Below, piece by piece: positions 13,660-42,611 of a stretch of DNA of 64,000 bases. Under the pieces are notes generated by a model. It did no database searches, was not told the origin of the DNA, and saw only the letters and a program-made list of their open reading frames with translations. Every line of letters begins with the position of its first letter. The stretch's first letter is position 1. Source of the stretch: Limnochordaceae bacterium (GTDB lineage Bacteria > Bacillota > Limnochordia > Limnochordales > DUMU01); assembly GCA_014896305.1 (NCBI GenBank), contig JADBKQ010000003.1, forward strand, positions 1 through 64,000, written 5' to 3'. Made by a program: the position numbers and the translations under genes.

Positions 13660-14289
13660 ATGCGCACCATCCTGGCCATTTTCCTGGAACGGCGTCGAGC
13701 CACCCTCTTTTGGGTCTGCTTACTGTTCGTTGTGGGTGGAGGGATTGGGTGGCTGATGGCATGGACCCTGCCTCCTACCCAGATCCAGCTGCTCAAGAAC
13801 GAGCTCACCCATTACTCCCTCTGGGCCGGACAGGCTCCCCCCACCAATAGCCTCGCCTTGCTGCGCCAGGCCCTCACCCAGGATCTGGTTTGTACTGCCG
13901 GCATCATCACACTAGCCGCTCTCTCCTTGCTGGGGGCGCCCGTGGTGCTACTGCTCGTGGGAGTCCGGGGTTTCGTCCTGGGTTTTACCAGTGGGTTGTT
14001 TACCCAGCCCCTGGGTTGGCACTCTCCCTTGGTCATAGCGGCTTTTCTGCTGCCTCACAATCTTCTGATCATCCCTGGGCTGATCCTGCTGGCCGTCGCA
14101 GCCCTGAGCCTAAGCAAAACGACGCTCCAAATCTTGCTGGGCCATCGCTCGGATACCTCTTACGGCCAGCAGTTGCTGGCTACATTGCTGATGACCTTGG
14201 TCACCTCGGGGATGATCGCCATGGGAGATCTGCTCCAGGCATTCGTCTCCCCCTACCTTCTGGCCGTCGTCAACCGGTTCTGGCCCTAG
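13660..14289 (+). CDS. spoIIM: Stage II sporulation protein M
   Basis: Integral membrane component of the SpoIIDMP peptidoglycan machinery that drives engulfment. The 209-residue protein has an N-terminal helix (LFWVCLLFVVGGGIGWLM) and four further hydrophobic segments. The central RGFVLGFTSG and the LPHNLLIIPG motif are typical of SpoIIM/DUF95 proteins. It sits just before xerD and deoB, as in other sporeformers; fur, often nearby, is not here. Confidence 0.88.
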   Translation: MRTILAIFLERRRATLFWVCLLFVVGGGIGWLMAWTLPPTQIQLLKNELTHYSLWAGQAPPTNSLALLRQALTQDLVCTAGIITLAALSLLGAPVVLLLVGVRGFVLGFTSGLFTQPLGWHSPLVIAAFLLPHNLLIIPGLILLAVAALSLSKTTLQILLGHRSDTSYGQQLLATLLMTLVTSGMIAMGDLLQAFVSPYLLAVVNRFWP

Positions 14290-22568: not shown

Positions 22569-22618
22569 CCGGGTTATGAGTTGGCCTATCCTTGGCTCAG
22601 AAAGTAGGGGTGTCCAGC

Positions 22619-22987
22619 GTGGTCAACCTGGAATGGGTCTCGACCCCGGCAGGACCCTGTTTGGTCGCAGCCATCTCCGGTGAACTGGACCTGCAAACCG
22701 CCCCGCTTCTTCGGACACAAATCGAAGGGGCCTGGTCCCAGCACCCTGAGGCTCGTCAACTCATTCTGGACCTTAGCGGCGTCACATTTGTAGATAGCTC
22801 TGGGTTAGGAGCGGTACTGGGGCGCTACCGGCAGTGTGTGCTGCGTGGAGGAAGGATGGCTCTGGTCGGGCTACAACCCAACGTGCGCCGCCTTTTTGAG
22901 CTGTCGGGCGTCCTGCGAATCATGGAGGCGTATAACAGCCTGGACGAAGCGCTACCGCTACCCCGGGAAGGAGGGGGAAGAGCTTGA
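22619..22987 (+). CDS. spoIIAA: Anti-sigma-F factor antagonist SpoIIAA
   Basis: STAS-domain protein that, when dephosphorylated, frees sigma-F from SpoIIAB in the forespore. The phosphorylation site TFVDSSGLGAVLGRY is present (Asp59-Ser60-Ser61 from the chosen start), with the N-terminal SGELDLQTAP strand. GTG at 22619 lies 8 bases after GTAGGGG and gives 122 residues, close to the usual 116; an upstream TTG at 22592 would add nine. Overlaps spoIIAB (TTGA). Confidence 0.93.
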   Translation: MVNLEWVSTPAGPCLVAAISGELDLQTAPLLRTQIEGAWSQHPEARQLILDLSGVTFVDSSGLGAVLGRYRQCVLRGGRMALVGLQPNVRRLFELSGVLRIMEAYNSLDEALPLPREGGGRA

Positions 22988-23469
22988 GCGGTGCGACAGA
23001 CGGTACACACCCCCGCCTTCAGGAGAATCACTTCGTGCTGGAGTTTCCCAGCCTGCCCGCTAACGTGGCCTTTAGCCGCTATGCGGTGGCCGCCTTCGCC
23101 TCGCAACTCGACCAGTTTACCCTGGTGGATATCGAGGACATCCGCATCGCTGTCTCGGAGTTGGTCTCCAACGTAGTGATTCACGCCTACCCGGATGGTC
23201 CGGGACCGGTACGGGTAGAGGGACGGCTGCGCGAAGGCTGCTTGGAGATCACCGTTTCCGACCAGGGTCGCGGCATCGCCAATGTGGAGCAGGCCCTTGA
23301 GCCCACCTTTACGACACTCCCGGGTGAACGAATGGGGTTGGGGCTGACCTTCGCCCGCCAGCTGATGGATGAAATGACGGTGACCTCTGTGCCCGGGGAG
23401 GGAACCGTCGTTCACCTGGTCAAACGTCCTTCGGCTGCGCCGGTACAACCGCCGGCGGTCTCCTCATGA
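22984..23469 (+). CDS. spoIIAB: Anti-sigma-F factor / serine kinase SpoIIAB
   Basis: GHKL-fold kinase that holds sigma-F inactive and phosphorylates SpoIIAA. The N-box AVSELVSNVVIHAYPD, the G1 box SDQGRGI and the G2-like ERMGLGLTFARQLMD are present in order. 161 residues, slightly longer than Bacillus SpoIIAB (146) at both ends. TTG start overlaps the spoIIAA stop, and its own stop overlaps the sigF ATG, so the three are translationally coupled. Confidence 0.95.
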   Translation: MSGATDGTHPRLQENHFVLEFPSLPANVAFSRYAVAAFASQLDQFTLVDIEDIRIAVSELVSNVVIHAYPDGPGPVRVEGRLREGCLEITVSDQGRGIANVEQALEPTFTTLPGERMGLGLTFARQLMDEMTVTSVPGEGTVVHLVKRPSAAPVQPPAVSS

Positions 23470-24335
23470 GCCGGCCGGCCGCACCCGCCGACGGACTGCC
23501 TTCAGGTTCCTCTCCATGGCCCGCGCCTTTACCGGAGGCCCAACTACATCAGCTTTTCCGGCAGTACCGGGCGGGTACGGAGCAGTCGGCCAGTGCGCGC
23601 CAGAGTATCATTCAGCACAATCTGCGCCTGGTCGCCACTCTGGTTCGCCGCTGGTGCACCGAGGCCGCCGTGGTGACCGGCGCTGCGGTCGAGGAGAGCG
23701 ACCTCTTTCAAGCGGGTTGTGTGGGCCTGGTCGAGGCGGTAGACCGCTTTGACCCCGATCTCGGTTTCGCCTTTTCCACGTACGCCGTACCCCTCATTTT
23801 GGGAGAACTGCGGGCCGCGGTACGACAGCGGTCGTTCACTCACTGGACCCGGAGTCTGCGGGATCGCTCGCAACAGGTGCAGACCTGCCAGGCGCAGCTA
23901 CGACAACATCTGCAACGAGAGCCCACCTTGCGGGAGCTGGCGGAGGCGTGCCGGCTTCCCACCGAACAAATTGTGGAGGTGCTCGAAGCCAGTCGTCCAC
24001 CCCTTTCCTTGTCAGAGATAGGAGAATCCGAAGAGGACTCGCCGCCCTGGGCAGAGCGGGTGGGCCAGGAAGACCGGGAGTTGCACCGGCTGGAGGAGGG
24101 GTTGGACCTGCGGCAAGCCCTGCAGTCCTTACCCGACCGCGAGCGAGAGTTGATTGAACTGCGCTTCCTGCACGGCCACAGCCAAACGGAGGTAGGCGTC
24201 CGGCTGGGCTTGTCACAGAGTCAAGTCTCCCGGCTCGAGCGCCAGGCTCTGCGCCAGCTGCGCCGAGGTCTGGCGACCGAAACAGAAGACTGCAGGCGTG
24301 CCGGGAATTGCCGAAAGGGAGACAGGCCGGGCTGA
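23466..24335 (+). CDS. sigF: Sporulation sigma factor SigF
   Basis: Forespore-specific sigma-70-family factor. Region 2 (SDLFQAGCVGLVEAVDRFDP; STYAVPLILGELRA), region 3 (LREHLQRE-type helix with REPTLRELAEACRL) and region 4 helix-turn-helix (SQTEVGVRLGLSQSQVSRLE) are all visible. ATG overlaps the spoIIAB stop. 289 residues, longer than Bacillus SigF (255) because of N- and C-terminal extensions. Position in the spoIIA operon separates it from the close paralogue SigG. Confidence 0.94.
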   Translation: MSRPAAPADGLPSGSSPWPAPLPEAQLHQLFRQYRAGTEQSASARQSIIQHNLRLVATLVRRWCTEAAVVTGAAVEESDLFQAGCVGLVEAVDRFDPDLGFAFSTYAVPLILGELRAAVRQRSFTHWTRSLRDRSQQVQTCQAQLRQHLQREPTLRELAEACRLPTEQIVEVLEASRPPLSLSEIGESEEDSPPWAERVGQEDRELHRLEEGLDLRQALQSLPDRERELIELRFLHGHSQTEVGVRLGLSQSQVSRLERQALRQLRRGLATETEDCRRAGNCRKGDRPG

Positions 24336-24451
24336 CGAAGTCCTTGGGTGCAATGGGATGAATGCCGGCCATAGTTGTACCCTTTGCAGCACTCATCGTT
24401 GCTTTCTACACCGACTTCATCGCCGCAACTACACCCGAGGGAGTGGCAGAC

Positions 24452-25000
24452 ATGATTTTAGCCGGCGCGATGGTTACCCTGCGACCGTTGCAGCGCGAAG
24501 ATGTCCCGGCCCTGGTGCGCTGGGCCAACGATCCCCTGATTGTGGATCTCATGGATGGAGGCTACCCCGACACGGAAGCAGAGTGTCTTGCCTGGCTGGA
24601 GCAGCTGGAATCCTCACGTCAGGAGAAGCACTTCGCTATCCTATCCCCCGACCGGAAGTTGATCGGGGACATCGAGCTCGATCACATCTGCTGGCGGCGT
24701 TTCGAGGCGGAGCTGCGCATTTGTATCGGCGACCCGGCATACTGGGGTCACGGGTTTGGCACCGATGCGGTCACCACTTTGTCCTGGTACGCTTTCAAAC
24801 ATCTTCATCTCCACACCATCTTCTTGCGAGTATACAGGGATAACTCCAGAGCCATTCGTTGCTACCAGAAGGTTGGCTTCCGCTCCGTGGGACGGTTGGT
24901 CCGTAACGTCCGCGGGGTCGATCGGGAAGTGTATCTGATGTTGCTGACGCCCGCCGACCTGGCAGCCCGCCGTTCGATCAGCCTGGCACTGGCAGGTTGA
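24452..25000 (+). CDS. GNAT family N-acetyltransferase (RimJ/RimL type)
   Basis: Acetyl-CoA-dependent N-acetyltransferase of the RimJ/RimL subgroup; substrate unknown. Family blocks: VTLRPLQREDVPALVRWAND at the N-terminus, GDPAYWGHGFGTDAV (acetyl-CoA pyrophosphate loop) and the C-terminal RDNSRAIRCYQKVGF. ATG at 24452 lies 8 bases after GAGGGAG; 182 residues is standard. Stands alone downstream of sigF. Confidence 0.9.
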   Translation: MILAGAMVTLRPLQREDVPALVRWANDPLIVDLMDGGYPDTEAECLAWLEQLESSRQEKHFAILSPDRKLIGDIELDHICWRRFEAELRICIGDPAYWGHGFGTDAVTTLSWYAFKHLHLHTIFLRVYRDNSRAIRCYQKVGFRSVGRLVRNVRGVDREVYLMLLTPADLAARRSISLALAG

Positions 25001-25096
25001 TCGTGAACGCGTCCCGGGTGCGGCGTAGCCGCCAGGGCAGCAGCAACTTCACGAAAGGTCGGGCAGCCGGCAGGGAGACGTGCAGCCATGCCGTAT

Positions 25097-25139
25097 ACCT
25101 AATCGACTTTTCACTCCGCCACGCGGAGCGTCGTTAGGT
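25097..25139. repeat. Nested stem-loop before the ABC ATPase gene
   Basis: An outer imperfect inverted repeat (ACCTAA-T-CGAC at 25097-25107 against GTCGTTAGGT at 25130-25139, one bulged T) encloses an inner hairpin CTCCGC/GCGGAG (25114-25128). No T-run follows on either strand, so it is not an obvious terminator. It ends 9 bases before the next start codon. Confidence 0.5.
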
Positions 25140-25148
25140 TGACGGAGG

Positions 25149-25895
25149 ATGGAGGCAACCTGGTTGGAGCCGCTGATTCTCGCAGAGCATGTGCACAAGC
25201 GTTTTGGTCGCCTGCATGTCTTGCAGGACGTCAGCTTGTCCGTCTTTCCCGGTGAGGTCGTGGTGATCATCGGTCCCTCCGGATCGGGCAAGAGTACATT
25301 CCTGCGTTGCCTGAATGGACTGGAGCGGATCGATGGGGGACGAATCCGGATAGACGGTCAGGATCTCGACGACCCGCACGTGAACATCAACCAGATCCGA
25401 GCGGAGTTGGGGATGGTCTTTCAGCAGTTCAACCTCTATCCGCACTACACCGTGATGCAGAACATTACCCTTGCCCCTATCAAGGTGCGCCACCTTCCTC
25501 CAGACAAAGCCCAGGCTGTGGCGCTGGACTTGTTGCAGCGGGTTGGGATCCCCAATAAGGCGTCAGCTTACCCCTGGCAGTTATCCGGCGGCCAGCAGCA
25601 ACGAGTGGCCATCGCTCGCGGACTGGCCATGCAGCCAAAGGCCATGCTCTTTGACGAGCCCACTTCCGCGCTGGATCCGGAGATGATCAAAGAGGTCCTC
25701 GACGTCATGAAGGGTCTGGCCCAGGACGGGATGACCATGGTCGTCGTCACTCACGAGATGGGCTTTGCCCGCGAGGTGGCAGACCGGATCGTCTTCATGG
25801 ACGGCGGGCGGATTCTCGAGGAAGGCCGTCCGGACGAGTGGTTCACTCACCCGGCGACCGAGCGGGCACGCCAGTTTCTCGAGAAAATCCTCTGA
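25149..25895 (+). CDS. Polar-amino-acid ABC transporter ATP-binding protein (GlnQ/HisP type)
   Basis: ATPase subunit of an amino-acid importer. Walker [11 protein letters not shown]-loop [12 protein letters not shown], signature [16 protein letters not shown], Walker [15 protein letters not shown] and the switch His in [11 protein letters not shown] are all intact. No permease or substrate-binding protein gene lies nearby, so it is an orphan here. ATG 25149 has GGAGG touching it; TTG at 25164, 8 bases after a second GGAGG, is an equally good start. Confidence 0.92.
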
Positions 25896-26085: not shown

Positions 26086-26745
26086 ATGTTGGACGTCTTT
26101 GCCAAGGGCGGCCCCACCATGTACGCTCTTCTGTTGTGTTCGGTTGTTGCCTTAGCCATCACCATCGAGCGGCTCTGGTTTTTCTGGAAAGTGCACCAGC
26201 CTGCTGACGAGCTCATGGACGACGTGCGTCAGACGCTGGCGGAGGGCAAGATGGTGGAAGCCATGCAGCTGGCCCGGGATAGCGACTCACCGACAGGAGC
26301 GCTGCTGGCTGCCGCCATTGAGCGTTGCGACGAAGGCCGGCAAGCCATGGAGGATAGCCTGGAGCGAGAGGCCGGCGAGCAGCTGGCCCGGCTCGAGCGC
26401 GGGTTGCCGATCCTGGATGTCATCGTGACCATCGCCCCGTTCCTGGGCCTGCTTGGAACGGTGCTCGGGATCATCCGGGCATTCAACGTGATGGGTTCGT
26501 TGCAGGGGGTCGACAGTCCCACCCGTCTGAGCGTGGGGATTGCGGAAGCCCTGATCACCACCGCAGCAGGACTGATCGTGGCCATACCGACGTTGGTGGC
26601 CCACCGGTACCTCTCGAGCCGGGTCGATGAATTCGTCGCCGAAATGAACGTCCAGGCATATGAGATTCTGGATATGCTGCAGCAGTCGCTGCCAGCCCAG
26701 GCGCCGGCCAAGCCGCTGGCTGCCGCCGCGCGGGAGGTGGAGTAA
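26086..26745 (+). CDS. exbB: ExbB/TolQ-type proton channel subunit
   Basis: Inner-membrane channel subunit that couples the proton gradient to TonB or Tol complexes. Three membrane segments are visible: near the N-terminus (ALLLCSVVALAITIE), VIVTIAPFLGLLGTVLGII with the conserved family core, and ALITTAAGLIVAIPTLVAH. A cytoplasmic helical domain lies between the first and second. ATG with GGAGGT 7 bases upstream. Immediately followed by exbD. Confidence 0.93.
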   Translation: MLDVFAKGGPTMYALLLCSVVALAITIERLWFFWKVHQPADELMDDVRQTLAEGKMVEAMQLARDSDSPTGALLAAAIERCDEGRQAMEDSLEREAGEQLARLERGLPILDVIVTIAPFLGLLGTVLGIIRAFNVMGSLQGVDSPTRLSVGIAEALITTAAGLIVAIPTLVAHRYLSSRVDEFVAEMNVQAYEILDMLQQSLPAQAPAKPLAAAAREVE

Positions 26746-27177
26746 GTGCTGATTACCCGCCGCCGGGCTTCTCGTTCCCCCGAAATCCAGTTGACCTCAT
26801 TCATGGACATCGTTTCCTATCTTCTGTTTTTCTTTATGGTTGCCACGACGTTTCGGGCCAATGCCGCCCAGTTTCCCATCGACCTGCCCAAGGCGAGCCA
26901 GGCGGCCGCACAGATGCGGACACAGTTCATCGTGACCGTCGATCGGCAGGGTGAGATCTACCTGGACAACAGCCGGGTAGATCAAGCTCAACTCCAGCTG
27001 GCTACCATGGCTGCTCTGAAAACCGATCCTTCCCTGTTCGTGGTCATTCGGGCGGACCGGCAGGTCCAGTACGGGGCGGTGGTTCAGGTGATCGACGCAC
27101 TGCGGGCGGCCGGAGTGAATAGTCTCGGTCTGGCCGTAGAACGTGTTCCGGCGCAAACCCCAGGGCAAGCCGCCTGA
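26746..27177 (+). CDS. exbD: ExbD/TolR-type protein
   Basis: Partner of ExbB with one membrane helix and a periplasmic domain. The helix has the conserved protonatable aspartate in LTSFMDIVSYLLFFFMVATTF-like context (Asp near residue 21). The periplasmic half has IVTVDRQGEIYLDNSRV and VVIRADRQVQYGAVVQVID. GTG start abuts the exbB stop; 143 residues is the normal size. Confidence 0.92.
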   Translation: MLITRRRASRSPEIQLTSFMDIVSYLLFFFMVATTFRANAAQFPIDLPKASQAAAQMRTQFIVTVDRQGEIYLDNSRVDQAQLQLATMAALKTDPSLFVVIRADRQVQYGAVVQVIDALRAAGVNSLGLAVERVPAQTPGQAA

Positions 27178-27221
27178 TCGGTTGTACAACTGGAAGAAAC
27201 CAAACTAAGGAGGGAACGGAG

Positions 27222-28262
27222 GTGTTTCGTCCGGCACAGCCGTCAGCACGACGCGCAGCCTCGTTCACTCTCTCCGTCCTCATTCACCTGCTATTCTTCT
27301 TGCTCTTTCCGCATTTGTCCTCCGTCTTTCAGGGTGAGGTCGCGGGGGAAGGTTCTCTGGGCGGAGGCGCTCCCCTCGATATAGTCACAGTGCAGCCCTG
27401 GGCTGTGGATGCTTCGGTCATCGTACCGTCGCCAGGGCTTGGCAAGACTCCCGGCAGCTCGCCCAACTCTCAGCGCCCCGCACCTGGCCCAGCACCGGCA
27501 AGGCCCGTTCGTCCACAAGAGGAGCTTACGCCCCCATCCGCCTCGTCCAGGACTCTTTTACCGGCAGCGGTGACATCGTCTGCAGAGCCGACGGCCGCCT
27601 TGACCCCCATGACGGCCAAGAACCCACCCCCTGCTGCCGATGAGTTGTTGACCAGCCCCACTGGGAAGGTGCTCGTACGTGCGGAGCCAACGCCGGCGGC
27701 TGCTGTTCAGCCCAGATCGGAGACTCCCCAGCCGGCCCAGCCAGGTTCCGACTCATCGGCAGGGCCGTCCGGCGCTACCCCTTCGTCCAGCCAAGCGGTT
27801 CAAGGGCAAAAAGAGCAGGGTGGAGAGGGGGAGGGGGGTACCTCGCCCGTACCGGCCCCGCCTCCCGCTCCTCCGGTAGGAAATGGGCCGTGGTTGGGAG
27901 GACCTGCTCCCCAATATCCCAAGAGTGCTCAAAACTCCGGGGTAGAAGGGGTTGTGTCCGGTCAGGTCCTCATCTATCCAGACGGGGCCACTACTGTCCG
28001 TCTGGTCTCCTCGTCTGGATCGGCGATCCTGGACCGCCAGGCCGTCGGCACCATTCAGGACCGCTGGCGGAGTACCTACCAGCCACCCGCCGGTTGGGTC
28101 ACCGTGGTGGAGTGGCAGGTGCGCTTTGCCCGTGAGAACGAGTACCAGGTGCTCGTCACTCAGAGCGGTGCCTTCAACGTGCGGGAAGAGGCGGTGCCCG
28201 CACAAGGGCCCGTTCCCCGGCCTGCGCCTTCTTCTCCGACGCCGGCTGGGACCGGGCGTTGA
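27222..28262 (+). CDS. tonB: TonB-like energy transducer
   Basis: N-terminal anchor helix with the SVLIH motif (the Ser-x-x-x-His pair that TonB uses to interact with ExbBD), a long Pro/Ala/Ser-rich spacer (about 35-225), and a C-terminal TonB domain. That domain starts near residue 232 with PQYPKSAQNSGVEGVV, followed by GQVLIYPDGA and SGSAILDRQAVGTI. 346 residues; the spacer would span a periplasm. ATG-type start is GTG at 27222 after AAGGAGGG. TonB is expected only in diderm cells. Confidence 0.85.
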   Translation: MFRPAQPSARRAASFTLSVLIHLLFFLLFPHLSSVFQGEVAGEGSLGGGAPLDIVTVQPWAVDASVIVPSPGLGKTPGSSPNSQRPAPGPAPARPVRPQEELTPPSASSRTLLPAAVTSSAEPTAALTPMTAKNPPPAADELLTSPTGKVLVRAEPTPAAAVQPRSETPQPAQPGSDSSAGPSGATPSSSQAVQGQKEQGGEGEGGTSPVPAPPPAPPVGNGPWLGGPAPQYPKSAQNSGVEGVVSGQVLIYPDGATTVRLVSSSGSAILDRQAVGTIQDRWRSTYQPPAGWVTVVEWQVRFARENEYQVLVTQSGAFNVREEAVPAQGPVPRPAPSSPTPAGTGR

Positions 28263-28283
28263 TGGTGCCCTGTAGGAGGGAGG

Positions 28284-30386
28284 ATGGCATTGGCAATGGA
28301 AAACCGTCGCTTGGCTCGGGGAGCATCCTGGCGACTCCCGCTCGTGTGGGTCACCGCTCTGATAGCCTGGGGTGTGGTGGCTGCCGCAGCTGGAGCCGAA
28401 GACAAGCTTCCTGAGGTGGGCGGCTCTTCGTTAACCCTGCAAAACGAGTTCATCCGTATCGTGCAGAACGGGGGTCCGAAAGAGGCGGGGCGCTTTTCGG
28501 TGAGTACTACGGGGGGCGATCCCCAACGCGCGGATGACAACCAGCGCCCCCTGATCTACGGGATGGACCGGCCCTGGACAAGCTACACTACCGTTCGCAT
28601 CGACAACGAAAGCTATCTGTTCGGTGGTCCCACGGACCGGCGGGCCGGGGCCAAAGTCCCGACGGGCCAGGTGATCACGGCGCCCCGCCGGGATGGCAAC
28701 AGCTTGGTCACTGTCTGCCAGATCGGCCCGATTCGGGTGGAACAGCGCTTGAGCATCGTACAAAGTCTCGATACCGGGGTGGAAGATTCGGCCCGGGTCG
28801 AGTATGCTCTCACAAATACCGATACCCAACCTCACCAGGTAGGCCTGCGCATCATGGTCGATACCATGCTGGGTGACAACGATGGTGCTCCCTTCCGGGT
28901 GGGGGAGACCGCATATGAAAGTGATGCCTCTTTGTCCGGCAGCGCCGTACCTGACTTCTGGCAGGCCTTCGATTCGCTGAACAGTCCCCACGTGACCTCC
29001 CAGGGAACGCTCCGGGGGCCGCAGTTGACCGCTCCGGACCAGCTGGTGTTCACCAACTGGGGCAACCTGGCGGATCATCCTTGGGATGTCCCCCTCACTC
29101 CCGGCCGCGACTTCACCCGGTCCGGAGAGTATGAGCTGGACTCCGCCACTGCGTTGTTTTGGAACCCTGTCACCGTTGCGCCTGGCCAGACCCGGTTCAT
29201 TGCCACCCAGTATGGGCTGGCCGGGATCAGCATCGCCCGGGGTGACCTGGCCGTGGGATTGTCGTCGCCGGCCCAGGTCGTGCAGGGAAGCGTCTTTCAC
29301 GTCATCGCGTACGTGGAAAACAACGTGGGCGAAGCTCGGGACGTCCAGGTGACGCTCGACTTGCCGGCGGGTTGGCGGCTGGTGTCCGGTACGGCCCAAC
29401 GGCAGTTGGGAATTCTCAAGCGAGGTGCTAGCGCCCAGGTGGCATGGGCGATTCAGGCGCAAGAGGAGGGAACGCGTCCCGTCACGGTGAGGGTCACCTC
29501 CAGTAACAGCCAGCCTTCCCAGCTGACACGTCAGGTCCAGGTTGTCCCCGGAGTCCAGCTCCAACTCGAGGTGAACCTGCCCTCATCCTTACAGGTCCAG
29601 GGGGAACGCCGCGTCCCCAATCCGGTACCGCTCGCGGTCACAGTTACCAACATCGGCTCGCAGACGGCCGACAATGTGACCTTGCGCCTGGAGAGAACCG
29701 GGGCGGCTCTACCCTTGGCCAGTGCGGACTCCCCGTGGCGTCGCTGGGGACCTCTGGAACCGGGTCAAGCCGCGGCGGCGACGGTGACCTGGTGGCTGAC
29801 GCCGCAAGCGAGCGGGCCGGCTGAGGACGTGGTCGTGGGCGTCAGTGTTGCCTCCGACAACGGGCCTAGCGTTGCCGCCACTCGGGTCGTGCAGCTGCCG
29901 GCCGTTTCGCCGCGAGTGTTCCTGGCCTCACCCCGCTCGGTTCAGCAGCCGGGAGGGCCCACCCTGGTGGAAGTGGACGTGATGGCCACCAACATTCCCG
30001 GTTTCTACGGGGCGGTCGTCGGCCTCGCGTACGACCCGCAGCGGTTGACGCCGTTGACCCCCCTCGTACTCACTGCCCGTCCTGGCACCCTCGCGGTGGG
30101 GCCGGCGGGAGGTTCAGCAGGGCTGTTCCGGGTCCTGCCAGCGGCTCCAACCGGGGTGAAGGTGGGCGGCGTACCCGCCGGCTGGCAGCAAATCTGGATC
30201 GAGTTGGAGCGGCGAACGGCGGGTCCCCTGGCTTGCACGCAGCCCAGCGATACCCTGGCCACGGTTCGGTTTATCGTCCAGGGATCGCAGACGGATCAGC
30301 TGCAGCAATCCTGGCTTCTGTTGCCGGGGCAGGTCACGAACCAGGCGGGCGAGATCATCCGCGTCGAGGGAGCAAACCGGCCGTAA
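28284..30386 (+). CDS. Large secreted protein, unknown function, with cohesin-like C-terminal domain
   Basis: Signal peptide (hydrophobic WVTALIAWGVVAAAAGAE), then a domain of about 280 residues that begins SLTLQNEFIRIVQNGG and includes PWTSYTTVRIDNESYLFGG; its family was not identified. Next come two beta-sandwich-like repeats of CARDB/DUF11 flavour (VVQGSVFHVIAYVENNVGEA; PLAVTVTNIGSQTADNVTL). A final cohesin-like region starts near residue 565 (VEVDVMATNIPGFYGAVVGL ... LATVRFIVQG). It lies 21 bases after tonB and is probably in the same operon. An exported envelope or surface role is inferred from signal peptide and neighbours. Confidence 0.75.
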   Translation: MALAMENRRLARGASWRLPLVWVTALIAWGVVAAAAGAEDKLPEVGGSSLTLQNEFIRIVQNGGPKEAGRFSVSTTGGDPQRADDNQRPLIYGMDRPWTSYTTVRIDNESYLFGGPTDRRAGAKVPTGQVITAPRRDGNSLVTVCQIGPIRVEQRLSIVQSLDTGVEDSARVEYALTNTDTQPHQVGLRIMVDTMLGDNDGAPFRVGETAYESDASLSGSAVPDFWQAFDSLNSPHVTSQGTLRGPQLTAPDQLVFTNWGNLADHPWDVPLTPGRDFTRSGEYELDSATALFWNPVTVAPGQTRFIATQYGLAGISIARGDLAVGLSSPAQVVQGSVFHVIAYVENNVGEARDVQVTLDLPAGWRLVSGTAQRQLGILKRGASAQVAWAIQAQEEGTRPVTVRVTSSNSQPSQLTRQVQVVPGVQLQLEVNLPSSLQVQGERRVPNPVPLAVTVTNIGSQTADNVTLRLERTGAALPLASADSPWRRWGPLEPGQAAAATVTWWLTPQASGPAEDVVVGVSVASDNGPSVAATRVVQLPAVSPRVFLASPRSVQQPGGPTLVEVDVMATNIPGFYGAVVGLAYDPQRLTPLTPLVLTARPGTLAVGPAGGSAGLFRVLPAAPTGVKVGGVPAGWQQIWIELERRTAGPLACTQPSDTLATVRFIVQGSQTDQLQQSWLLLPGQVTNQAGEIIRVEGANRP

Positions 30387-30478
30387 CGGCCAAGGAAGTC
30401 GCTGTCCCTTCCGGACAGGGAGGGCCAGGACCGAGTCCCACAAATGGGGGCGAAGACAAGGAAAGGAGAGAGTCTACA

Positions 30479-32113
30479 ATGCAGCGGTGGTGGCAGAGCA
30501 AGTGGACAGCGGCCGCACTGGTCGGACTGTGCTGGCTGGCAGCGGGCGGACGTGGACAAGCCGCAACCCTTAAGGATGTACCGAAGAATGACCCTTACTA
30601 CGATGCCATTGAACGGCTCGTCAGCAAGGGGTACCTCTCTGTCTATTCGGACGGCTCGTTTGGCCCGAGCCGGGCGGTCGATCGCTACACTCTGGCTGTT
30701 GCCCTGGATCAGGTGGTTACCCAGCTAGAGAAACTGCAGGCGCCGCAAAGCCAGATCGATGTTTTGCGCTCGCTGGCCAACGACTTGCGGGCACAACTCG
30801 CCAAAGCCGTGGCTGACCAGGGAAAGCTGAGCGACCAAGTCACCGGGGTCAGCAACCAGCTGGGGGCGTTGCGCCTGGACCTGACCAACCTGGCGAATCT
30901 GGTCTCTCAACATGACCAGCAGTTGGGCGAGTTGAGCAAAGGGTTGGCCAGCCTGCGCACGGATTTCACAAAAAGCTCGCAGGACAACCAGGGGCAATGG
31001 CAGAAAGCACAAGCCGATCTGAAGCAGCTGCAGGCAGGCCAGCAGAGCTTGACCGACCAGCAAACCCAGCTGGCTGCCCGGGCCGATGGGTTACAGGGGC
31101 AGTTGAGCCAGGTCCAGGCCCAGCTAGACCAGGTCACCAAGGATCTTCGGGGCCGGCTGGATACCCTTTCGACTGCCCAGGACCAGCAGAGCCAGGGGCT
31201 GGCTCAATTGCAGCAGGCACTGGCAGAAGAGAAAAAGCAGCGGGATGAGGCCATTGCCCAGGCGGTGGCGAGCCTGCAAGCTGCTTTGCAGGCCACCGGC
31301 GACCAGCAGGGCAAACTGCAAAGTGCCCTGGACTCCAGCACGGCTCAGTTGGCCACGCGGGTGGACACATTGGAGAAAGGTCTGGCAGACGAAGCCCAGC
31401 AGCGTGAAAAGGCTGTGGCTGCTGCCGTTGCCGACCTGACCCAGCGCCTGCAGGGTCTGGACGCCCGCCAGAACGAGCTGGCCAACTCGCTGCAAGCCCT
31501 GGATCAACGGCTGCAAAACCTGGCCGGCCAGCTGGTGCAGACGTCCACACAAAGCAGCCAGAATACGGAGCGAGCCGACAAGCTCGCTCAAACCGTGGCC
31601 GACTTGAGCAACCAGCTGCAAGAGCTGCAAACCGGCCTGCAAACGACGAACAGCACTGTGGCAGACCAGGGTTCGGACGTGAATCGGTTGAAGACTCTCA
31701 TTTCAGCCCAGGACGAAACGCTCAGTTCTCTCCGGAGCGACCTCACCGCCACGCGGAGTAGCCTGGATCAGGTGACGGGCAGCACGATCCCCTCCTTGCA
31801 GCAGGCCGATCAGGAATTGACGGCCCGGCTAGAAGGGCAGCAGGTTGCCTTCCAGCAACAACTGGATGCCATCAATGCCAAGCTAGATGCGCTGGCCCGG
31901 GATGTGGGGGATCTCAAGACCAACCGGGTCGATGTGGCAGCACAGCTGGCTGCTGCGTTCAACAACATGACGAAGCTACAGCGGGATCTGGACCAGTTGC
32001 GCAGTGATTTCGAGAGCTTCCGCACGGATACGAGCAAGAAACTCTCCACCGTGGATCGGAACCTCATGGTCGTAGGCGCAGTCGCCTCCATGCTCGGAAT
32101 CGCGGTAAAGTAG
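30479..32113 (+). CDS. SLH-domain coiled-coil envelope protein with C-terminal membrane helix
   Basis: 544 residues: signal peptide, one SLH domain (about 30-80; LKDVPKNDPYYDAIERLVSK then YSDGSFGPSRAVDRYTLAVA), about 440 residues of Gln/Leu/Ala-rich heptad-like coiled coil, and a C-terminal hydrophobic helix (LMVVGAVASMLGIAV). The same domain order is known from Thermotoga Omp-alpha, which links the cell wall to the outer membrane; Negativicute OmpM has SLH plus coiled coil plus barrel instead. Wall-to-outer-membrane tether is therefore the best inference. ATG with AAAGGAG. A CTGTCC/GGACAG hairpin lies in the gap after the preceding gene. Confidence 0.85.
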   Translation: MQRWWQSKWTAAALVGLCWLAAGGRGQAATLKDVPKNDPYYDAIERLVSKGYLSVYSDGSFGPSRAVDRYTLAVALDQVVTQLEKLQAPQSQIDVLRSLANDLRAQLAKAVADQGKLSDQVTGVSNQLGALRLDLTNLANLVSQHDQQLGELSKGLASLRTDFTKSSQDNQGQWQKAQADLKQLQAGQQSLTDQQTQLAARADGLQGQLSQVQAQLDQVTKDLRGRLDTLSTAQDQQSQGLAQLQQALAEEKKQRDEAIAQAVASLQAALQATGDQQGKLQSALDSSTAQLATRVDTLEKGLADEAQQREKAVAAAVADLTQRLQGLDARQNELANSLQALDQRLQNLAGQLVQTSTQSSQNTERADKLAQTVADLSNQLQELQTGLQTTNSTVADQGSDVNRLKTLISAQDETLSSLRSDLTATRSSLDQVTGSTIPSLQQADQELTARLEGQQVAFQQQLDAINAKLDALARDVGDLKTNRVDVAAQLAAAFNNMTKLQRDLDQLRSDFESFRTDTSKKLSTVDRNLMVVGAVASMLGIAVK

Positions 32114-41583: not shown

Positions 41584-41666
41584 TGTCAAGCAGACAACCT
41601 GTACCAGCGTATATATTCTCTGCCTCCATCCGTAGGCCCGTGCCACGAGGCAGGAGTACAGGCGAG

Positions 41667-42611
41667 GTGCATGGGGTGGCGGAGAGATTCTCAGCGGCGG
41701 CTTCTTCAGCTCACCCGAGAGAAAGCAGTTTTCCTGAGCTCTCAGAAGCGCGGGCACAGGAGCTACGCCAGGTTCACCAGGAGCTGGATTCGCTGGTGGG
41801 GCTGCAGCGGGTGAAGCGCCTGGTATACGAGCTCGAGGCCTTGCTGCGGGTGCAACAGGAAAGAGCCCGTTTCCAACTGGCCAACGATCCGCTCGTACTG
41901 CACCAGATCTTCCGCGGCAACCCCGGAACCGGGAAGACAACGGTGGCCCGCCTGCTGGGCCGGCTTTTCCATGCTCTGGGAGCGCTGCCCAAAGGCCAGC
42001 TGGTGGAGTGCAGCCGCGCCGATCTGGTGGGAGAGTACATTGGTCATACCGCTGTCAAGACCCGCGAACAGGTGCGAAAAGCGGCAGGAGGGGTTCTCTT
42101 CATTGACGAGGCATATGCGTTAGGCCGCGGGGGAGAGAGGGATTTCGGGAAAGAGGCCATCGATACCCTGGTCAAAGAGATGGAGGACCGGCGCTACGAA
42201 TTCGTGCTGATTTTGGCCGGCTATCGGGAAGAGATGGACCGGTTTCTTTGGCTGAATCCGGGGCTACGTTCCCGATTCCCGCTCCATCTGGACTTTCCAG
42301 ACTATACTGTGCCTGAGTTGATGGAGATCGCCGAAACGATGCTGGCCCAGCGAGAGTATGTGCTGAGCGCCGCCGCCCGCCACAAGTTACGGTTACTGTT
42401 GGAGGAGTCGGCCCGGCAACAAGAGTTTGTCTTCGCCAATGCACGGCTGGTGCGCAACCTCGTGGAGAGGGCGATCCGCCGGCAAGCCGTTCGGCTGGCC
42501 GCCCCTGGAACATCGATCCATGTGGCCGGCCGGCTAGCCAGCGGGGGACGGCGGCGTCAGGAACTGATGACCATTTTCCCGCAGGACTTGACGCTGGAAG
42601 ATGCATTCTAA
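41667..42611 (+). CDS. spoVK: Stage V sporulation protein K-like AAA ATPase
   Basis: CbxX/CfqX-SpoVK subgroup of AAA ATPases. Walker A GNPGTGKTTVARLLG lies near residue 85, then LVGEYIGHTAVKT, Walker B GVLFIDEAYAL, and the sensor region ILAGYREEMDRFLWLNPGLRSRF. In Bacillus spoVK is needed for spore maturation and lies after miaA-hfq, matching the position here. Start uncertain: GTG 41667 has AGGAG at 9 bases; GTG 41640 is also in frame. Confidence 0.87.
   Translation: MHGVAERFSAAASSAHPRESSFPELSEARAQELRQVHQELDSLVGLQRVKRLVYELEALLRVQQERARFQLANDPLVLHQIFRGNPGTGKTTVARLLGRLFHALGALPKGQLVECSRADLVGEYIGHTAVKTREQVRKAAGGVLFIDEAYALGRGGERDFGKEAIDTLVKEMEDRRYEFVLILAGYREEMDRFLWLNPGLRSRFPLHLDFPDYTVPELMEIAETMLAQREYVLSAAARHKLRLLLEESARQQEFVFANARLVRNLVERAIRRQAVRLAAPGTSIHVAGRLASGGRRRQELMTIFPQDLTLEDAF

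Follow-up and report, generated by a model that had tools for sequence, protein, structure and literature searches.

A conserved five-gene unit contains an ExbB-ExbD-TonB motor without a detectable receptor in a diderm Limnochordia genome with sporulation genes

Results

The window, by which we mean the whole 64,000-nucleotide stretch of DNA analysed here, corresponds to contig 23 of a Limnochordaceae genome of 2.56 Mb (58 contigs, 92% complete). Five genes, all on the plus strand, occupy the interval 26086-32113. The first (26086..26745) encodes a 219 aa protein of the ExbB/TolQ family, the proton-channel subunit of the motor (PF01618, E=2.7e-34), and is followed without a gap (0 bp) by a gene (26746..27177) for a 143 aa motor subunit of the ExbD/TolR family (PF02472, E=3.8e-30), whose membrane Asp is residue 21 (26806-26808, within FMDIVSYLL). 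After 44 bp comes the gene for a 346 aa force transducer of the TonB family (27222..28262), for which PF03544 (E=7.8e-12) and TIGR01352 both scored over their cut-offs; it contains an SVLIH anchor (27273-27287) and a C-terminal TonB domain (27903-28106, PF03544 over cut-off). The fourth gene, located 21 bp further downstream (28284..30386), encodes a secreted protein of 700 aa, named protein X here, which was characterised by a Pfam CARDB match (E=3e-6), alignments, AlphaFold and Foldseek. About 92 bp downstream of it lies a gene (30479..32113) for a coiled-coil protein with an SLH domain (PF00395, E=1.8e-8) and a hydrophobic C-terminal tail; the likely start of this gene is the ATG at 30479, and a longer ORF starts with a TTG at 30233. 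An earlier note on this DNA had described exbB, exbD and tonB as adjacent and co-oriented, and had named the membrane Asp of ExbD and the anchor and C-terminal domain of TonB. All of this is borne out for 26086-28262; protein X and the SLH gene were absent from that description, although the interval it gave runs to 32113, where the SLH gene ends. Upstream, as context outside the conserved unit, lie spoIIAA-spoIIAB-sigF (22592..24335, plus strand) and, in the interval between sigF and exbB, genes for a GNAT acetyltransferase and an ABC ATPase (24362..25895, plus strand).

Motors of the ExbBD/TolQR type use the proton motive force via the Asp, and TonB, held by its SxxxH anchor, passes force through the periplasm via a proline-rich linker; TonB and TolA both transmit force toward the outer membrane. 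The Asp was invariant in the aligned ExbD/TolR sequences (58/58), and the SxxxH anchor was kept in 64/72 TonB frames (one per locus). Of the other eight, seven retain the His, and one is a frame that was misread. The TonB linker is rich in proline (19%). Matches to ExbD and TonB_C were near-universal among the 61 genomes of the class, and an ORF at the TonB position was found in four genomes (G015, G024, G033 and G054) that were all missed by the Pfam model. ExbB and ExbD of the window scored highest against tolQ/tolR models. Receptor-linked copies did likewise, so that this preference is uninformative on Tol kinship and was dropped as an argument for it. The lengths of TonB and of the SLH coiled coil showed a weak link (rho 0.26, p=0.04, kinship ignored); given this weak correlation, matched lengths of two proteins that would both span the periplasm were not used as an argument either.

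The earlier note took the TonB system, combined with sporulation genes in the same window, as a sign of a diderm endospore-former. Family matches confirmed these sporulation genes: spoIIM (13660-14289; TIGR02831, E=3e-24), spoIIAA (22592-22987), sigF (23466-24335) and spoVK (41640-42611; TIGR02881, E=5e-113) gave strong matches below the curated NCBIfam cut-offs, and spoIIAB (22984-23469) scored over its cut-off. The genome contains two full-length bamA genes, on contigs 57 and 9 (E=1.4e-53 and 4.6e-49), and one LpxC gene (E=1.3e-72), beside which a stretch of contig 57 encodes LpxI, an LpxA-like acyltransferase, LptF/G, OmpH and BamA. Together with the sporulation genes of the window, this set of BamA and LPS genes establishes that the genome belongs to a diderm that has sporulation genes, and the inference is thus correct. 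Most relatives of the source genome carry a single full-length BamA/Omp85 copy. According to the passages of PMC11456536 that cite Watanabe 2016 and Taib 2020, Limnochordia are Gram-negative diderms and L. pilosa is a Gram-negative spore-former; diderm Limnochordia are described in PMC11448272 too. Two membranes are reported from microscopy for cultured Limnochordia relatives (PMC11456536); for the source organism the diderm assignment comes from its genes. Since diderm Limnochordia have already been reported, this part of the earlier note is correct but not new.

Of the outer-membrane genes that the earlier note proposed to look for, the genome has BamA and LpxC but yielded no TonB-dependent receptor; the note had paired BamA with the TonB receptor in its refuting condition, and just the former is present. 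The receptor Plug domain (PF07715) was found neither in the source genome nor in any of the 13 further genomes from its order, G004, G005 and G008 being single-contig assemblies, and a search for receptor barrels in the source genome and the rest of the order agreed with the Plug result. The Ton system, which had been called complete, therefore consists of a motor with its Asp and an SxxxH-type TonB with a C-terminal domain, and has no receptor plug or barrel detectable in the genome. Within the class, Plug matches were present in 9/61 genomes and absent from 52/61. A second ExbD was found in 7/9 of the plug-bearing genomes versus 0/52 of the others (Fisher p=8e-8), and in the loci examined the second exbD adjoins the receptor gene. 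In a tree of ExbB plus ExbD, the receptor-linked Limnochordia copies formed a clade with 100% support and the Bacillota core copies a separate clade with 84% support; monophyly of all core copies, including those of Armatimonadota and UBP13, was not recovered. Given the absence of a receptor, the motor looks built for another job, and the TonB motor of the window is probably not a Ton system for nutrient uptake. A separate operon in receptor-bearing Limnochordia (L072, L073 and L075) combines genes for the receptor, ExbB, ExbD and TonB with a conserved gene whose product has 230-240 aa (cluster c38).

Ordinary Ton uptake, in which the motor energises receptors that have diverged beyond detection, or else outer-membrane channels of an unlinked, non-canonical kind, has in our judgement a small though appreciable probability. 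The family assignments of ExbB, ExbD and TonB are those expected, the classical task of a TonB system is to energise receptors, and diverged receptors are one of two options given in the excerpted text of the Halothermothrix orenii genome paper (PMC2626281). Moreover, outside the class some receptor-bearing genomes show a single ExbD: in 28 genomes reached via loci mostly from other groups, a second ExbD was present in 5/10 with a plug versus 1/18 without (p=0.013), and this loose link means that some core motors might also serve a receptor. Against uptake, the Plug model readily detects receptors of Bacillota (matches in 45/399 phylum genomes, including 13/14 BamA-positive, X-less genomes of families f44, f74 and f85), and the receptor-bearing genomes of the class mostly carry their own exbBD. 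Uptake also leaves the linkage of the five genes to X and the SLH protein unexplained.

To follow the unit across the phylum, full-length X was scored at E<1e-120 in a set of 399 genomes. It was present in 88/399 and BamA in 103/399, and 87 of the 88 X-bearing genomes were positive for BamA (p=5e-70, kinship ignored). The only X-bearing genome that gave no BamA match (G442) is a fragmented assembly and has LpxC. Because the genomes are related the p value overstates independence, but the pattern is still near-perfect. No plug was found in 58/88 of the X-bearing genomes. BamA without X occurred in 16 genomes, 14 of which belong to the receptor-rich families f44, f74 and f85, which are probably Negativicutes; X is therefore not universal in diderm Bacillota. 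Several X-bearing genomes, for example those of class family f8, gave no LpxC match, indicating that the unit is independent of LPS.

Protein X has a signal peptide followed by a conserved supersandwich domain (28422-29252), Ig-like domains resembling CARDB and NPCBM_assoc, and a C-terminus that is cohesin-like according to a weak Cohesin match obtained with a homologue; no lipobox was seen. Across the class, identity to the copy of the window was 35-54% for the full protein and 49-74% for the N-terminal domain. The AlphaFold model of the latter (pLDDT 86, pTM 0.88) matched, in Foldseek, supersandwich domains from GH94/GH116 enzymes and from proteins of the galactose-mutarotase-like type (TM ~0.5, E ~1e-7 to 1e-6), and also the periplasmic domain of YidC. 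With full-length X, Foldseek returned only long multi-domain chains at low TM-scores. A sequence search of the N-domain profile against solved structures gave no match, nor did X match PHROGs. No match to a beta-propeller was obtained either, the model consisting of the supersandwich and Ig-like domains. The modelled N-terminal fold points to a binding domain, without a pointer to its ligand.

X might accordingly be a glycan-binding protein, periplasmic or on the surface, that is moved or loaded by TonB in the PMF-driven handling of glycans or other outer-membrane cargo, and the SLH protein would then serve as a scaffold anchored in the wall. The combination of supersandwich, Ig-like and cohesin-like domains is typical of glycan-handling proteins, as is reflected in the resemblance of the N-domain to GH94/GH116 and galactose-mutarotase-like proteins and in the NPCBM_assoc and cohesin-like matches, and regions resembling the N-domain are present in very large ORFs (~1600-2600 aa) in genomes that gave no match to BamA (G301, G412, G451, G237, G263 and others). 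We nevertheless regard glycan handling as rather unlikely: because the periplasmic domain of YidC shares the fold, the fold is no proof of glycan binding, no transporter or enzyme gene beside the unit is conserved across all lineages, and X tracks BamA.

The SLH protein contains a single SLH domain, a coiled coil recognised by coiled-coil family matches and, straight after the coiled coil, a hydrophobic segment some 20 residues long at its end (32063-32110). This tail is present in nearly all intact copies, and the coiled coil differs strongly in length by lineage (211 to 1447 aa for the total protein). An N-terminal SLH domain and a coiled coil are shared with the SlpA/OmpM tethers, but the C-terminal outer-membrane beta-barrel of these tethers (PMC9388160, PMC10628300) is absent from the SLH protein. 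The closer likeness is to Omp-alpha of Thermotoga, with which the SLH protein shares a signal peptide, an SLH domain and a long coiled coil, and which has a terminal transmembrane helix (PMC9388160), the corresponding helix here being predicted from hydrophobicity. The tail could lie in the inner membrane. Unlike Omp-alpha, SlpA and OmpM, the SLH protein is coupled to an ExbBD-TonB motor operon.

When genome contigs were scanned for matches to the X alignment, 232 relatives emerged, the best 80 of which were inspected for gene order. The order exbB-exbD-tonB-X-SLH was complete in 66 of these best 80 loci; among the 14 incomplete ones, 13 end at contig ends. The remaining one (L116), from an Armatimonadota genome of the class Hebobacteria, is a similar operon outside Bacillota, the last gene of which encodes a short coiled-coil protein without an SLH match. 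Relatives bearing the unit include Halanaerobiales, Halobacteroidaceae and Hydrogenispora. In 36/37 core loci of the class, exbB-exbD-tonB is located just downstream of spoIIAA-AB-sigF, and X and the SLH gene then follow wherever the contig goes on. Outside Limnochordia, as far as gene names can be read off the sequences, the unit is flanked in one set by plsX/fabD/fabG/fabF/rnc and in another by rlmN, FHA and FtsW/RodA-like genes. That the order of the five genes is kept while their surroundings vary is most simply read as selection on the whole unit. In nearly all Limnochordia loci the GNAT acetyltransferase gene (24362-25000 in the window) is located between sigF and exbB, and the ABC ATPase gene in this interval is variable among genomes. 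Apparent chemotaxis and flagellar switch genes, going by a reading of the sequences, follow the unit in L051, L060, L066, L069, L081 and L082, which belong to several Limnochordia families.

The neighbourhood of sigF could mean that the unit is dedicated to sporulation, being expressed together with sigF and doing outer-membrane work in engulfment or outgrowth, and a weak scan found no plus-strand terminator between the sigF block and the unit. Despite the near-constant position in Limnochordia we hold this improbable, given the unrelated neighbour genes outside the class and two loci (L057 and L094) in which the genes for pyrimidine-nucleoside phosphorylase and PHP have no dacF-spoIIAA-AB-sigF block between them. 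There the exbBD-tonB unit remains, which makes a sporulation device unlikely. Loss of sporulation is possible in these two lineages. That the unit is a relic of an uptake system with no present function, as the missing receptors of most genomes might suggest, is very improbable and already disfavoured by its conservation, all five frames being open and conserved, the ExbD Asp kept in 58/58 and SxxxH in 64/72 sequences, and X being 35-54% identical to the window copy across the class.

Discussion

Tol-Pal pulls on the outer membrane and anchors it, and acts both at division and along the cell. Our analysis suggests, with about even confidence, that the five-gene unit constitutes a PMF-driven coupling of the outer membrane to the cell wall, which would be Tol-Pal-like in function without being a member of Tol-Pal and without serving TonB-dependent receptors. 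ExbB-ExbD would draw on the proton motive force and TonB would carry the force across the periplasm, where its C-terminal domain would act on X and/or the SLH coiled-coil protein instead of on a receptor. In this way the connection of the outer membrane to peptidoglycan could be pulled, released or repositioned, as by Tol-Pal. X would take the role of TolB as a soluble periplasmic adaptor, and the SLH coiled coil with its tail that of Pal, as a peptidoglycan-binding tether.

In terms of these supposed roles, exbB-exbD-tonB-X-SLH has the same order as tolQ-tolR-tolA-tolB-pal of E. coli. Like tolQ-tolR-tolA-tolB-pal-cpoB, the unit comprises a motor pair, a TonB/TolA-type transducer and a soluble, beta-rich periplasmic protein, with a protein of the peptidoglycan-binding, membrane-anchored kind last, and both occur in diderms. 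A TolQRA-type motor and transducer thus lies beside genes for periplasmic partners, as expected of Tol-Pal, but TolA and TonB are indistinguishable by structure alone (PMC12204202). The components themselves differ: TolB is a beta-propeller whereas X is a supersandwich/Ig rod, and Pal is a lipoprotein with an OmpA-type domain whereas the tether here has an SLH domain and a C-terminal tail and is not a lipoprotein. Because X has no propeller and the SLH protein is no lipoprotein, the likeness to Tol-Pal goes no further than order and architecture. None of the 61 genomes of the class contained Pal over the TIGR02802 cut-off (0/61), and weak matches to it also arise in B. subtilis. Curated Tol-Pal systems were found only in Gracilicutes, and among diderm Firmicutes Ton systems were detected only in Negativicutes (PMC12204202).

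With the Ton system the unit shares ExbB, ExbD and a TonB that carries both the anchor motif and the TonB_C domain. A Ton system has receptors, whereas here most genomes lack them and the operon is tied to X and the SLH protein. The excerpted 2009 account of Halothermothrix orenii (PMC2626281) reports ExbB, ExbD and a putative TonB together, without receptors, and suggests a different function; X, the SLH partner and conservation are undescribed in that excerpt, whereas the unit reported here is class- and phylum-wide. The five-gene unit is undescribed in the literature searched; as this did not include Taib 2020 and Witwinowski 2022, an earlier mention is possible. What is new is thus the receptor-less motor within a conserved five-gene unit, the diderm nature of Limnochordia being known already.

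Somewhat more tentatively, we propose that the unit is an undescribed PMF-driven outer-membrane stabiliser, with periplasmic parts unrelated to those of Tol-Pal, that is present in nearly all diderm Bacillota save three receptor-rich, probably Negativicutes, families and has kin in at least one Armatimonadota MAG; it may be an ancient Terrabacterial solution to the task for which Gracilicutes use Tol-Pal. Repeated transitions from diderm to monoderm are thought to have occurred in the phylum, and the unit provides a set of genes with which to study how outer membranes are kept in place there, and how they are lost. According to a 2025 survey, further systems that stabilise the outer membrane are still to be found (PMC12204202). 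A receptor-less motor operon that tracks BamA and includes a tether of the wall-binding type is a concrete candidate for such a missing system, and it suggests why H. orenii has a TonB without receptors, a puzzle noted in 2009. The SLH coiled-coil protein reaches ~1450-1490 aa in two loci of class family f12 (L054 and L056), compared with 211-854 aa elsewhere, and their coiled coil, if unbroken, would measure ~200 nm.
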